In this document: positions 40,365 to 44,690 of the stretch, piece by piece
How positions within the stretch are numbered: position 1 is the stretch's first letter
Layout: every line of letters begins with the position of its first letter
Assembly: GCA_900100245.1 (NCBI GenBank)
Contig: FNEU01000013.1
Coordinates: 1-64,000, forward strand
Direction: 5' to 3'
Length of the DNA stretch: 64,000 nucleotides
From: Lachnospiraceae bacterium G41
GTDB lineage: Bacteria > Bacillota > Clostridia > Lachnospirales > Lachnospiraceae
Position numbers and translations under genes: made by a program
The notes under the pieces: model-generated
Seen by the model: only the letters and a program-made list of their open reading frames with translations
What the model was told of the DNA's origin: nothing
Databases searched by the model: none

Positions 40365-40388
40365 AAAAGCAGTCCGAAGACTGCTTTT
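40365..40388 (-). terminator. Terminator overlapping the DUF2752 gene stop
   Basis: AAAAGCAGTC and GACTGCTTTT form a perfect 10-bp stem around a CGAA loop. The minus strand continues TTTTTCTCTTTT. It starts at the stop codon of the 40387 gene. The remaining bases to 40257 are AT-rich and probably hold the promoter of the phosphoglucomutase gene. Confidence 0.85.
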
Positions 40389-40830
40389 ATAAACATGTGA
40401 TATGAAATGCCAGAAACAATATGTTTCTTAATACCCACTGTCCCAGTAAAATGCCTATTCCTACGAGGATTGTTACCGTCACAGGGAACCCCTGAAAGCC
40501 AAGTTTTTTAGTAGTTTTCACCAGTATTGTATTGATCATAAATACCAGATAATCGGCATATGTATACGGTACGAAGGGATTCATCAGAATACTCTTAAGT
40601 AAATGACCGTGTATCATATGATAAAAACTTCTGGTTCCGCCGCATCCCGGACAGTATATGTGGATTATACTGTAAACCGCACATTTAATACCGCCGTCGA
40701 TAAGATAATCTCCAAGTAAGAAAAACACTATAATGGTCGGAATCGTCAGTATGCCAAATACTATTCCGAGCTTAAACCAGGTGTCGGTAAGATCATCTTT
40801 AAATAAGCGTTCGCTCATATTATCTTGCAT
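40387..40830 (-). CDS. DUF2752 membrane protein
   Basis: This 147-residue protein has about three hydrophobic segments and the DUF2752 hallmark CPGCGGTRSFYHMIHGHLL (about 65-83). There the cysteines and the TR pair are conserved and may bind metal. Function is unknown. Its ATG overlaps the end of the DUF4190 gene by 11 nt, and an ATG four codons later (40818) is an alternative start. Such pairs occur together in Clostridia, and both are membrane proteins with low-complexity neighbours. Confidence 0.75.
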   Translation of the reverse strand: MQDNMSERLFKDDLTDTWFKLGIVFGILTIPTIIVFFLLGDYLIDGGIKCAVYSIIHIYCPGCGGTRSFYHMIHGHLLKSILMNPFVPYTYADYLVFMINTILVKTTKKLGFQGFPVTVTILVGIGILLGQWVLRNILFLAFHITCL

Positions 40831-41185
40831 TTAAGATGTTGATGATAATGATTACAAGCCAAACGATAATAACGATAACTGAAGCAACGAGGCCGATAAT
40901 ACTTGTGATTAAACCGCCTGTAGCGGGGCCGCCTGCTTTTTTCTTCTTTGCAATAATGCTTAAGATCAAGCCTACAATACCTAAGATAAAGTTAAGGCAA
41001 GGGAATGCGCAGCAAAGAAGTGATGCGATACCTACGATAAGACCTGCTATTGAAAGTCCTTTTGAACCGCCTTCGGCAACTGCTTCTTCTGCATCTGCAG
41101 CATAGCTGTAAGTAACCTGCTCAGCCTGTTCTACTGTTTCCTGTACATCCTGAACGGGTGTCTCGTTTAAATTGTTGTTATCCAT
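40820..41185 (-). CDS. DUF4190-type two-helix membrane protein
   Basis: This 121-residue protein has an acidic N-terminus (about 1-38), then two hydrophobic helices: GLSIAGLIVGIASLLCCAFPCLNFILGIVGLILSII divided by cysteines, a short basic loop KKKKAGG, and GGLITSIIGLVASVIVIIVWLVII. This repeat of G-x-x-x-G-rich helices is the DUF4190 pattern. The cysteine pair/trio CCAFPC in the first helix is noteworthy. GGAGGG precedes the ATG. The function is unknown; it is coupled to the DUF2752 gene. Confidence 0.65.
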   Translation of the reverse strand: MDNNNLNETPVQDVQETVEQAEQVTYSYAADAEEAVAEGGSKGLSIAGLIVGIASLLCCAFPCLNFILGIVGLILSIIAKKKKAGGPATGGLITSIIGLVASVIVIIVWLVIIIINILNAR

Positions 41186-41248: not shown

Positions 41249-44200
41249 TTAAATGTGGCTGATATCCGTAAACATTGCAAGATCCATATCAATGGTGCAG
41301 ATGTCATTTAAGTTAAGATCATGAACATTATTGTGACCCGTGCTTCTGCAGATATCCATCAAATCTTCGGTCATACTGTTGGCCATATCGATGTCAAAGC
41401 CTTTTTCTACAAGTACGAAGTTAGCTCCGAGTGCAAGAATCTTTGCAAGTTCCTTTGCATCCTTTAATGATTCAACACGAACTAAAATCTCAAGCTTTGA
41501 ATTTACTCTGTTAAGATAATTTCTTGCTCTTCTTAATGCGTAAGGAAGAATTCTTAATGAAATATCATTTAAGATTACGTAATCAAGTTTTGCAAATACA
41601 CATGCTTCCAAATCATCTTCGATTCTGCCGGCTACAAGATCGATACCGATAGGTACGCCGTTGAATCTTGCTCTTGCGATTTCAACTTCTTCCTTAAGTT
41701 CTTCCTTGCTGGAAAGATTAGGAATATGTCCGTCTTCACCCTTTACAAGTACCAGTGCCTGATTTGTATAATTCTCGGCCTTAGTGTTGTTGGGAATATG
41801 TTCTCCCCAAATAAAGAGTTTTGAGAAGCAGAAAGGCTGCAATACTTCTACAGGGCTTGCCGTACGTGCACCGAGCACGGTTCTTGTTTCAACTTCAGCT
41901 TCTCTGTCCAAAGGAAGAGGATTGCACTGTGCGGGAAGGAGAATTATGTTTTCAAGACCGTATGCATTGTTGCGGTCTGCAAAGCGATAATCTTCAAACA
42001 GCTTCTTTGCATTCGAATCATAAATAACCGTATACTTGGGATCTCTCTTAAGAACCGAATATTCTACGGATGATTCGTCAGCATTGGCTACGTTTTCGTC
42101 AAGGCTTATATAATCTCTTTCTTCGTCTTCTTTTTCGCTTTCGGGCTCTGTGAAGAAATCATCTTCTGTCTCAGCTTCTGCTTCGGGTTCTGCTTCAGGT
42201 TCTGCTGTTTCTTCTGCAATTTCTTCAGCTTCTGCGGTTTCTTCTTCGCTTTCGTCGCCTGCTGCCACTGCTGCCGCACCTGCTACTGCTGCCGCACCTG
42301 CCAAACCTGCAACTGCTGCTGCAGCGCCAAGGCCTTCTCCCTCTTCTTCTGCTGCATCTTCTGCAACTTCTTCTGCCTTATCAAATATTTCTTCTGCTGC
42401 TTCTTCTATTTCATCTGCTACTTCTTCGGTAGCTTCTTCTGCTGCTTCTATTTCTTCTGCTTCCTCTTCAATCTCATCGGCTGCTTCTTCAGCGGCTTCT
42501 TCGAATAAATCTTCTGCTTCAGCATTTTCTTCAGAAGCTCCTTCGTCTTCTACAGCTTCTGAATCTTCTGCTTCTTCGGATTCAATTTCTTCAGCAGCTT
42601 CTTCGTTATCTTCTGATTCAGCTTCTTCCTCAGTTGCTTCATTTTCTTTGGCAACTTCTTCTTCGCTTTCTACTGCTTCTTCGGCATTTTCTTCCGAAGC
42701 TTCTTCAAATTCGAAAGGCTCATCAGCATCTTCAGTTGCTTCTTCGGATTCCTCAGCACTTTCTTCTGCAGTTTCTTCGCTCTCTTCAGATTCTTCTGCA
42801 GGCTCTTCTGCTAATTCTTCTGTGTCCTCTATAGCTGCTTCTTCAGTATTATCTGTTGCATCTTCGGAATCGGAGCCGAAATCTTCTTCGTCATTATCGA
42901 AATCAAGGAATACTACACCTTCATCCTCGTCTTCGATTTCGCCGGTTGCTTCTGCCTCTTCAGCAGCTTCTTCAGTATCTGCATTCTCTTCTGCTGCTTC
43001 TTCGGATGCTTCTTCGTTTTCTACAGCTTCTTCATTTTCATCTGCTTCTTCAAAAGCGAATCCTTCTTCGTCTTTATTTTCTTCAGACTCTTCTGCAGTT
43101 TCTTCTGAAATTTCTTCGTTTACTTCTTCGTTTACTTCTTCGTTTTCTTCAGCTGCTTCATCTGCTTTAGCTTCTTCAAAGAAACCATCAGTTTCTTCTG
43201 CTGCTTCGTCTGCTACATTTTCTGTTGCTTCATCGGTAGATTCTTCTGTTTCCTCGGTTGCTTCTTCAGCTTCTTCAGCTACTGCTTCGTCTGCTGTTTC
43301 TTCAGCATTCTCTTCAGAATCTTCAACTACATCTTCAGTATTCTCTTCAGCTTCTTCAGCATTCTCTTCAGCAACTTCTTCTGCAACTTCTTCAGATGTT
43401 TCTTCAGTTGCTTCTGCAGCCTCTTCTGTTTCTTCAGCTGCTTCTTCGCTTACTTCATCGGTTGCTTCGGGAGTTTCTTCAAAGGAAAGAGCTTCGTCGT
43501 CGTTAGGAATTACAACTTCCTCGTCCTCTTCTTCCTCTTCTTCCTTCTTAGGCTCAGCGCCTACCACCTTCTTAATGGTTCCGAGACCGTCACCATAGTA
43601 AGGAGCGAATTCTTTATTGTTTTCTTTGTTCTTTGCTTCTTCTTCAGCCTTAAGTTCTTCTTCTGTCTTTACAGGCTTGCCTGAATAGAATGTGGAAATA
43701 ATGCCGTTGTCGATTCTTTCGTCTTTTTCTTCAACCTTTGTTTCGCTTGCAATCTCTTTGTCGGTATTCTCACCGCCGATAACTCTCTGAACACTGCCGA
43801 CATGGCTGAATGAAAATGCGGGCTTTTCTTCTTTTTCTTCTTTAACTTCTTCAGTCTTCTCGCTGTCGTCTTCTTTCTTCCAAAATTCCTGACGCTTCTC
43901 GATTACGAATCCGCCGGTAGGAGCACTTTCTTCTGCCTTTTCCTCAGCTTCTTCTTTTGCTTCTTCTTCCTTGGCATTCTCTTCAAGGATCTCGTCTATG
44001 AAATCTTTATGCTCGCTCTTGGGCTTTTCTTCATCGGATGTAAAGCTCTCGGCCTTGGTGAAAAGACTTGCAAAATCAGGACCTTCGTTTTCAGACTCGG
44101 GCTTTTCAACATTGGGCTTTTCTTCTTCGGATGAGAATTCTTCAGCCTTGCTGAATAAATTAGCAAAATCGGATGTTTCACTCTCGCTTTCAGGCTTCTC

Positions 44201-44623
44201 TACATCGGGTTTTTCTTCATCAGAAGAAAACTCGCTTGCCTTAGAGAAGAGACTTGCGAAAACAAGATTTTCATCATCCGATTCACTCTTTTCGGGTATT
44301 TTCTTTTCTTCGGCAGACGAAAATTCGCTTGCTTTTGTAAACAAGCTTTCAAAATTGGGGCCTTCGTCTCCTGCCTCAGATTTAACTTCTTCGGTTTCTT
44401 CTTTTTCTTCCGAATTCATTCCTGCTGTTTCTTCATCAGCTTCCTCGAAAACAAAATCGTCTCCGTCATCGAATTCGTCATCTTTGTTTTCATCTGCTTC
44501 GATTAATTCGAAAGCGGATTTGTCAGCATCACATATGGGACAACTGTATAAATTTTCAAAGGTCTCACCGGCCTGCTGTTCGTCAAAAACATAACCACAT
44601 ATTTTACATTCATATTTTGCCAT
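41249..44623 (-). CDS. Giant acidic rubredoxin/glutamate-synthase-like fusion
   Basis: This 1124-residue protein has three parts. Residues 1-40 are a rubredoxin-type iron site: CKICGYVFDE, then CPICDAD. Residues about 45-840 are extremely acidic low-complexity sequence: four 31-residue repeats (90-205; DFASLFSKAEEFSSEEEK type), a KR-containing part, then about 470 residues of E/A/S/D/T with only about five lysines and no arginine until the end. An alanine-glycine hydrophobic block GLGAAAAVAGLAGAA lies near its end. Residues about 844-1124 resemble part of the FMN barrel of glutamate synthase (ILLPAQCNPLPLD, VLGARTASPVEV, VPIGIDLVAG, DICRSTGHNNVHDLN), but the GEGG and GDGTG flavin motifs are absent. 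ATG 44623 follows GGAGGG. Function is unknown. Confidence 0.75.
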   Translation of the reverse strand: MAKYECKICGYVFDEQQAGETFENLYSCPICDADKSAFELIEADENKDDEFDDGDDFVFEEADEETAGMNSEEKEETEEVKSEAGDEGPNFESLFTKASEFSSAEEKKIPEKSESDDENLVFASLFSKASEFSSDEEKPDVEKPESESETSDFANLFSKAEEFSSEEEKPNVEKPESENEGPDFASLFTKAESFTSDEEKPKSEHKDFIDEILEENAKEEEAKEEAEEKAEESAPTGGFVIEKRQEFWKKEDDSEKTEEVKEEKEEKPAFSFSHVGSVQRVIGGENTDKEIASETKVEEKDERIDNGIISTFYSGKPVKTEEELKAEEEAKNKENNKEFAPYYGDGLGTIKKVVGAEPKKEEEEEEDEEVVIPNDDEALSFEETPEATDEVSEEAAEETEEAAEATEETSEEVAEEVAEENAEEAEENTEDVVEDSEENAEETADEAVAEEAEEATEETEESTDEATENVADEAAEETDGFFEEAKADEAAEENEEVNEEVNEEISEETAEESEENKDEEGFAFEEADENEEAVENEEASEEAAEENADTEEAAEEAEATGEIEDEDEGVVFLDFDNDEEDFGSDSEDATDNTEEAAIEDTEELAEEPAEESEESEETAEESAEESEEATEDADEPFEFEEASEENAEEAVESEEEVAKENEATEEEAESEDNEEAAEEIESEEAEDSEAVEDEGASEENAEAEDLFEEAAEEAADEIEEEAEEIEAAEEATEEVADEIEEAAEEIFDKAEEVAEDAAEEEGEGLGAAAAVAGLAGAAAVAGAAAVAAGDESEEETAEAEEIAEETAEPEAEPEAEAETEDDFFTEPESEKEDEERDYISLDENVANADESSVEYSVLKRDPKYTVIYDSNAKKLFEDYRFADRNNAYGLENIILLPAQCNPLPLDREAEVETRTVLGARTASPVEVLQPFCFSKLFIWGEHIPNNTKAENYTNQALVLVKGEDGHIPNLSSKEELKEEVEIARARFNGVPIGIDLVAGRIEDDLEACVFAKLDYVILNDISLRILPYALRRARNYLNRVNSKLEILVRVESLKDAKELAKILALGANFVLVEKGFDIDMANSMTEDLMDICRSTGHNNVHDLNLNDICTIDMDLAMFTDISHI
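44009..44356 (-). repeat. Four tandem ~31-residue coding repeats in the acidic protein
   Basis: Codons for residues about 90-205 hold four units of the form N/DFASLFS/TKAxEFSSxEEKPxVEKPESE, period about 31 residues (93 nt). The last is partly degenerate (FTSDEEKPKSE). Unlike the later acidic tract they mix lysine, proline and a conserved aromatic-leucine F-x-x-L-F motif that could form an amphipathic binding helix. Confidence 0.75.
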
Positions 44624-44661
44624 TAAAATGCCCTCCCACAAGCATAAACCTAATCTCTTAT

Positions 44662-44690
44662 ATCATATATTTTTTAAGGCCGAATGTCAA
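44662..44690 (-). promoter_or_regulatory. Promoter of the acidic fusion gene
   Basis: On the minus strand TTGACA (44685-44690), a 17-nt spacer and TATGAT (44662-44667) precede the GGAGGG/ATG at 44623 by about 35 nt. The strong -35 suggests the gene is well expressed. Confidence 0.7.

Follow-up and report, generated by a model that had tools for sequence, protein, structure and literature searches.

A rubredoxin protein with a long acidic arm and a degenerate glutamate synthase-like barrel in Lachnospiraceae bacterium G41

The window analysed here comprises the first 64,000 nucleotides of contig FNEU01000013.1 of Lachnospiraceae bacterium G41 (assembly GCA_900100245.1), and the subject of this study is a single gene on its minus strand, which encodes an N-terminal rubredoxin-like domain, an acidic arm of about 800 residues and a C-terminal domain related to glutamate synthase (GltS). 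The limits of the gene and the length of its product had been given exactly in an initial annotation made from the sequence alone, which left the strand unstated; on the plus strand, frame 1 of this interval contains many stops. The protein has a pI of 4.05 and a net charge of -312, and is the most acidic of the 50 scored open reading frames (ORFs) of the window, itself included, with 35% D+E against 21% for the next and a median of 14%. Two genes, coding for a small DUF4190-like protein and a DUF2752 protein, lie downstream. The coordinates of all features are listed in Table 1.

The N-terminal domain was matched by Pfam RUBY_RBDX over residues 4-39 with 27.9 bits (cut-off 26.5), and the C-x2-C / C-x2-C arrangement was present in both the Pfam match and the alignment with all four cysteines kept, as the initial annotation had it. 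An AlphaFold2 (AF2) model of the N-terminal 358 residues, built with nine sequences, gave a predicted local distance difference test score (pLDDT) of 91-93 for residues 1-40 and mostly below 60 for the remainder.

The C-terminal domain, which had also been read as glutamate-synthase-like, was harder to place. Pfam Glu_synthase (PF01645) matched the window protein with E 0.31 and 10.6 bits, under the gathering cut-off of 20.4; NCBIfam gave only weak aldolase and kinase matches to the C-terminal part; a single-sequence phmmer search of the PDB gave a best E of 0.086, to aldolases; and the profile of the degenerate domain, searched against the solved structures of the PDB, gave nine weak matches (E 0.35 or worse), none of them a GltS. 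Single-sequence searches failed to show the origin of the domain. It was traced by comparison with intact relatives, that is, shorter rubredoxin-GltS proteins of the Lachnospirales, and hhalign aligned the degenerate profile with the intact rubredoxin-GltS profile at probability 100 and E 3.8e-47. The homology is thus established by profile. A structure model of the barrel was poor (mean pLDDT 51, predicted template modelling score 0.50), and the best 50 of 1416 Foldseek matches to it included many TIM-barrel enzymes at a query TM of 0.39 or less and no glutamate synthase. The two conditions that the initial annotation set for its refutation thus fail to refute it: the acidic tract recurs in other assemblies, and the domain is a profile homologue of the GltS barrel, although the model is too poor for this to be judged by fold.

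Six patterns were tested in the two groups: SFGAL, EGG, KPG.GG, RGG[AT][TG], TGG[LI]R and C.{4,5}C. The first five stand for SFGAL, EGG, KPGMGG, GRGGAT and TGGLR, which we take to be FMN-site and catalytic-loop motifs of glutamate synthase (FMN, flavin mononucleotide). The sixth was the search form of the 3Fe-4S motif C(x)5C(x)4C, the Fe-S motif as given for CD0828 of Clostridioides difficile (PMC11980386). All six were absent from 27/27 degenerate rows, representing 23 distinct genomes (four rows repeat a gene already fetched), and all six were present in 26/26 intact relatives (28 loci were fetched, and L023 and L030 were dropped for lack of an anchor). The alignment leaves out a gene detected in G411 and the second copy in G410; in G410 the two copies, on contigs C21 and C68, may stem from a genuine duplication or from redundancy in the assembly. 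The intact relatives shown carry SFGAL, EGG (mostly as GEGG), KPGMGGHLPG, GRGGAT, TGGLR and C(x)5C(x)4C, and the window domain lacks every one. The flavin-site motifs reported missing in the initial annotation are therefore indeed missing, except that GDGTG, also named there, is not carried by the intact relatives shown. In the alignment, the window barrel is an intact barrel minus discrete blocks, namely about 40 residues around SFGALS...CSGEGG, stretches around KPGM and around PGEKV...SPSKF, the GRGGATGSSP loop, and about 40 residues with the Fe-S cysteines; TGGLR is replaced.

Loss of these motifs has been accompanied by strong constraint on what is left. The ratio of nonsynonymous to synonymous substitution rates (dN/dS) of the barrel domain was 0.021-0.112 in 8/8 pairs with the window, indicating strong purifying selection, compared with 0.079-0.251 for the N-terminal part in the six of eight pairs that were not saturated and 0.279-0.440 for the acidic tract, which is the fastest-changing part and whose alignment is uncertain. 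In the trees, all degenerate forms of the genus formed one clade (support 100) whose stem is long, at 1.04-1.07 substitutions per site, and a single well-supported clade implies that the deletions most simply occurred once. The clade sits among the intact forms, at nodes whose support ranges between 32 and 100, and the long branch leaves its exact sister group insecure. Searches, alignment and tree agree in deriving the protein from the shorter rubredoxin-GltS proteins of Clostridia, an origin already put forward in the initial annotation.

The arm (residues 46-848) contains 42% E+D and 6% K+R. By the charge-hydropathy rule, a rough guide under which the rubredoxin itself also scores slightly negative, it is predicted to be disordered except for a 40-residue slice around an Ala/Val/Gly segment. 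It splits into two zones, residues 46-355 with motif islands and residues 356-860 rich in Glu and Ala. The acidic character annotated for the whole stretch holds, but the first zone is more than simple low-complexity sequence. Across nine sequences (the window and eight orthologues), islands with invariant residues were FxIEKRQEFWK, GSVxxVIG, NxxIxTxY, VKxEExxxAEEEA and FxPxxGxGxGTxxKVxG. E[KR]RQ[DE]FW was found in 22/22 proteins, the most divergent members included, the remaining islands being less regular in the latter; these counts exclude L033, whose contig begins near the domain, and the refetched loci L062, L063, L064 and L066 represent L058, L052, L056 and L060, respectively. When back-translated into a DNA pattern, this motif matched 6/150 family genomes, and lay within such a protein only in the two members of the genus among them. 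The arm is thus a predicted disordered chain carrying conserved short motifs. In the Glu/Ala tract, identity to the four closest relatives was 0.58-0.68 against a shuffle maximum of 0.45 (10 shuffles each), and identity to four more distant relatives was modestly or barely higher than that of shuffles (0.40-0.47 vs 0.39-0.43), two of these pairs barely beating the best of 10 shuffles (0.434 vs 0.429 and 0.398 vs 0.392). D+E stayed at 40-50% across eight orthologues; with identity near that of shuffles in the distant pairs, it follows that composition is conserved more than order. Comparison of proteins with both ends gave a distance from rubredoxin to barrel anchor of 596-894 residues in the window and eight complete close orthologues (862 in the window).

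Probable expression had been argued in the initial annotation from a strong promoter and a long open frame. Promoter-like sites in the region are as a class not above chance (6 found vs 5.8 expected), and TTGACA-17-TATGAT is the top one, matching 11/12 consensus positions where the remaining sites match 9. Its TTGAC and TAT[GA]AT were kept in 8/8 aligned rows (the window and seven orthologues; of 11 close rows, L032, L033 and L036, whose contigs start in or just ahead of the gene, were set aside), whereas bases farther upstream have drifted. The open frame is likewise kept in relatives.

The domain is also encoded on ten contigs of other rumen or gut Lachnospiraceae assemblies, nine of which have the acidic arm joined to it; the tenth, L033, is the one that begins near the domain. 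The domain was matched in 24/31 genomes of the genus and in 12/13 high-quality ones. Among the seven genomes with no match, three (G397, G414 and G421) had a match to the rubredoxin part in frames of 314, 779 and 403 aa, which we take as cut copies, and no part of the protein was found in the other four. A search of the 31 genomes with the intact profile, run with no intact genome as positive control, yielded no intact rubredoxin-GltS as the best match among the matches listed; the best matches were GltB-type frames, the acidic-armed protein, or the rubredoxin part only. With no intact form as best match, the genus seems to have exchanged the intact form for the dead one. Beyond it, a domain search of 397 family genomes gave matches in 80, of which this genome and G120 matched nearly the whole query with at least 262 bits and the others scored 59 bits at most, their best region being query residues 141-249. 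The 28 loci fetched from these others had open frames of 430-723 aa, with rubredoxin-type cysteines in 27/28, the sole frame lacking them being that of 430 aa in L020. Across the order, the degenerate profile reached E 1e-20 or better in 34 of 392 genomes, with 378-417 bits for the two genus members and 102.9 bits for the best other. These searches sample 397 and 392 genomes, outside which further degenerate forms may exist; viral contigs, scanned for additional sequence diversity, contributed no rows.

Of the relatives found, the nearest to have been studied is CD0828, compared here through its paper and through the Lachnospirales relatives. CD0828 is a protein of 480 aa encoded in the rbr operon, which is regulated by PerR/OseR, and has an N-terminal rubredoxin, an interdomain loop of about 40 residues and a GltS-like barrel with a C(x)5C(x)4C motif, a predicted 3Fe-4S cluster and FMN (PMC11980386). 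It is reduced by NADH (nicotinamide adenine dinucleotide, reduced form), faster with FMN, is a slow electron donor to Rbr and Sor, and is required to survive H2O2; that either of these two is its physiological partner is doubted by the authors (PMC11980386). CD0828 shares with the window protein the order rubredoxin, linker, GltS-like barrel and an anaerobic host, whereas the window protein lacks the FMN and Fe-S motifs, has an arm of about 815 residues and has no such neighbours. The intact Lachnospirales rubredoxin-GltS proteins are direct homologues with the same domain order as the window protein; besides keeping the six patterns, they have short linkers in the eight aligned with their N-terminus. 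One of them (L011) is a 474-aa protein whose N-terminal rubredoxin falls just below the Pfam cut-off, and two (L008 and L015) carry a C-terminal rubrerythrin. Another, at L096:1214-4078 (minus strand), is a 955-residue fusion of an [FeFe] hydrogenase (PF02906, PF02256 and ferredoxin clusters) with an intact rubredoxin-GltS, a joining that points to hydrogenase as a possible source of electrons for this family. A comparable joining of rubredoxin, rubrerythrin and hydrogenase modules in a Clostridium is CperHydR of C. perfringens, an [FeFe] hydrogenase-rubrerythrin chimera and H2-dependent peroxide reductase (PMC11926857); unlike the window protein it is a working enzyme, and its abstract mentions no GltS-like barrel or acidic arm.

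A 433-aa protein from another family of the order (G689, L102:679-1977, minus strand) also joins a rubredoxin to a barrel lacking the six patterns, through a Pro/Glu-rich linker. Its linker is far shorter than the arm of the window protein, and it keeps RGG and GG[LI]R and matches PF01645 with 109 bits. In the tree it falls outside the genus clade, although its own branch is long and poorly placed, and it probably represents a second, convergent path towards a pseudoenzyme. Among the open-access papers listed, judged by title and the opening of the abstract, none dealt with a rubredoxin-GltS protein that is degenerate or bears an acidic arm.

The reading that we favour, with middling confidence, is that the protein is a flavin-free pseudoenzyme adaptor, which would hold the rubredoxin and probably partner proteins on a polyanionic leash. 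It starts from observations, namely the ancestry, the loss of the tested cofactor-site patterns, the selection on the dead barrel, the conserved promoter, the islands and the acidity, and a scaffold is preferred on two grounds, the linear motifs conserved in the arm and the constraint on the dead barrel. Of the two roles suggested in the initial annotation it is thus the scaffold that is taken up here, and the analysis leaves the metal or iron buffer neither supported nor excluded. An ancestral rubredoxin-GltS redox protein would have become a non-catalytic adaptor by losing its FMN-site, catalytic-loop and 3Fe-4S motifs in discrete deletions, the dead barrel remaining as a folded module for binding or oligomerisation. 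The disordered arm might dock partner proteins through its aromatic/basic islands (E[KR]RQ[DE]FW, GSV..VIG and others), its negative charge keeping it extended and repelling off-target contacts, while the rubredoxin at the far end would carry iron and give single electrons to docked partners or take them. The likeliest partners would be the oxygen-defence set of rubrerythrin, flavodiiron protein and [FeFe] hydrogenase, given that some intact relatives are fused to rubrerythrin or hydrogenase. This genome encodes two proteins of rubrerythrin type (C21 and C19), a 612-aa flavodiiron-like protein (C14) that also has flavin-reductase and rubredoxin parts, and two proteins matching the [FeFe] hydrogenase family (C17), so possible partners exist. 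As a works-like analogy, with no homology shown, the carboxysome scaffold CsoS2 (PMC11365436) is also a long disordered protein with repeated conserved short motifs; no evidence of a microcompartment was obtained for the window protein.

Several points weigh against this adaptor. The folding of the barrel is inferred from conservation because the structure model is poor, and the short islands could be local folding nuclei instead of docking sites. Moreover, the gene is not beside PerR, rubrerythrin or hydrogenase, nor located in an rbr/perR operon as in C. difficile, a setting that is not general, its neighbours being the DUF4190-like and DUF2752 genes. A bolder and unlikely version would make the protein a genus-wide redox hub, in which a rubredoxin on a polyanionic leash of about 800 residues, with several docking motifs and a dead-barrel anchor, gathers oxygen-defence or hydrogenase proteins and passes electrons among them. 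If true, this would be a new way for anaerobes to arrange electron delivery, a tethered, enzyme-free electron distributor having replaced an enzyme. The gene offers a clean example of shared deletions that rendered an enzyme-derived domain non-catalytic while it stayed under strong selection, coupled with extreme growth of an acidic arm, and the intact, hydrogenase-fused, rubrerythrin-fused and dead forms together constitute a natural experiment on the role of the poorly understood CD0828-type proteins.

Among the alternatives, the arm could bind Fe2+, Mn2+, Mg2+ or Ca2+ in bulk and collapse upon them, with the rubredoxin handling iron redox. Such an ion or iron buffer would agree with the acidity over about 800 residues and with a composition kept more than sequence, and the acid-rich disordered protein AGARP is described as collapsing with divalent ions (PMC12557392); we nevertheless consider it rather improbable, since it leaves the aromatic/basic islands and the strong conservation of the dead barrel unexplained. 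That constraint would fit a regulator or sensor, in which the dead barrel binds a ligand or the true GltB and reports the nitrogen or redox state, with the rubredoxin as redox switch. A GltB-type protein is indeed encoded elsewhere in the genome (C20, 462.7 bits with PF01645), but on another contig and with no genomic link seen, and with all six patterns gone there is no sign of a remaining ligand pocket, which makes a sensor a slightly more remote prospect. At L073:3988-9158 the GltB of the genome is seen as a 501-aa protein with ferredoxin-type cysteines at its N-terminus, among ORFs resembling by eye glutamate-synthase partner subunits, an oxidoreductase and glutamine synthetase.

A decaying relic, whose linker expanded by slippage of Glu/Ala codons without function, would account for the repetitive tract (20 overlapping tandem-repeat rows), for its dN/dS of 0.28-0.44, the fastest of the protein on an uncertain alignment, and for the spread of the rubredoxin-to-anchor distance. 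The expansion of the Glu/Ala part alone may be neutral, but a gene whose barrel shows a dN/dS of 0.02-0.11, whose frame and promoter are kept and whose motif island recurs in 22/22 proteins is unlikely to be decaying, and the relic reading as a whole has only a small probability. It is very improbable that the protein is still an enzyme whose shortened barrel binds flavin or another cofactor in a new way: 45/242 alignment columns are invariant across 18 diverse barrels and the rubredoxin is present, yet the six FMN-site, catalytic-loop and Fe-S patterns are absent in 23/23 genomes, and none of the nine weak matches to solved structures was a GltS. Finally, this genome is a 22-contig draft in which repeats can mis-assemble, and the exact length of the repeat tract could be slightly wrong, but the gene is not an assembly artefact, a notion with next to no probability that is contradicted by the contigs of other assemblies, which carry the domain mostly with the arm.

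Table 1. Coordinates of the gene, its parts, its expression signals and its downstream neighbours in the window
Feature	Position	Strand	Evidence
Whole gene, 1124 aa + stop	41249..44623	minus	ATG at 44623, stop at 41249; orthologues found
Sigma-70-type promoter TTGACA-17-TATGAT	44662..44690	minus	11/12 consensus positions
Ribosome-binding site GGGAGGG	44631..44637	minus	By eye; inside conserved region
Rubredoxin-like domain, residues 1-45 (Cys 6, 9, 28, 31)	44489..44623	minus	Pfam and AF2 model
Four F-x-x-L-F-x-K-A-x-x-F repeats, residues ~91-200	44024..44353	minus	Three are short helices in the low-confidence model
FVIEKRQEFW island, residues 239-248	43880..43909	minus	E[KR]RQ[DE]FW in 22/22 proteins
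GSVQRVI island, residues 276-282	43778..43798	minus	Alignment of orthologues
NGIISTFY island, residues 306-313	43685..43708	minus	Alignment of orthologues
FAPYYGDGLGTIKKVVG island, residues 339-355	43559..43609	minus	Alignment of orthologues
Glu/Ala-rich tract, predicted disordered, residues 356-860	42044..43558	minus	Composition, shuffle control, tandem repeats
Ala/Val/Gly hydrophobic segment (26 residues) inside the tract, residues 764-789	42257..42334	minus	Hydropathy
Degenerate glutamate-synthase-like barrel, residues 861-1124	41252..42043	minus	Alignment, motif counts, dN/dS, hhalign
DUF4190-like small protein, downstream	40820..41185	minus	Pfam E 1.7e-5, under cut-off; synteny
DUF2752 protein, conserved downstream	40387..40830	minus	Pfam 56.8 bits

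ORF names other than those tested with Pfam are mostly presumptive, given from the look of the sequence. A DUF2752 homologue was found downstream, up to about 6 kb away, in 15/16 orthologue loci (9/9 close and 6/7 divergent ones, L066 being the exception), and a DUF4190-like gene was recognised in 6/9 close loci as well as in L062, L063, L064 and L066; a literature search on DUF2752 and DUF4190 found no paper naming either. In L062 (9413-10261) and L064 (8882-9745) the DUF4190-like protein has a long low-complexity N-terminal part, with QNQGF-type repeats in L062, and since it stands beside the acidic gene, two adjoining genes there carry such expansions. Farther away in the window are ORFs that presumably encode phosphoglucomutase and, divergently, truA. 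Among five intact loci examined, only L069 is preceded by a Fur/PerR-like ORF (by eye). In four divergent members of the genus (L065-L068), the gene stands first in a cluster that also contains genes for a radical-SAM protein and thiamin pyrophosphokinase (TPK) and hydE-, hydG- and hydF-like genes, the names hydE and hydG being presumptive; Pfam confirmed HydF, radical SAM and TPK domains in L065, the sole locus of the four tested. A direct link to [FeFe]-hydrogenase maturation was dropped, as hydF lies on another contig in this genome and the link is not kept in the window.

Two further candidates within the gene were rejected. A transmembrane role for the Ala/Val/Gly segment was dropped because the segment is weaker or absent in other printed orthologues; its 19-residue hydropathy peaks at 1.94, and by eye it is seen in the window, L031, L032, L034, L035 and L064. 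A plus-strand ORF at 42150-43598 (482 aa, poly-Ser) was rejected as a gene, being the mirror of the Glu/Ala codons, and such a Ser-rich frame is a trap for automatic gene callers.

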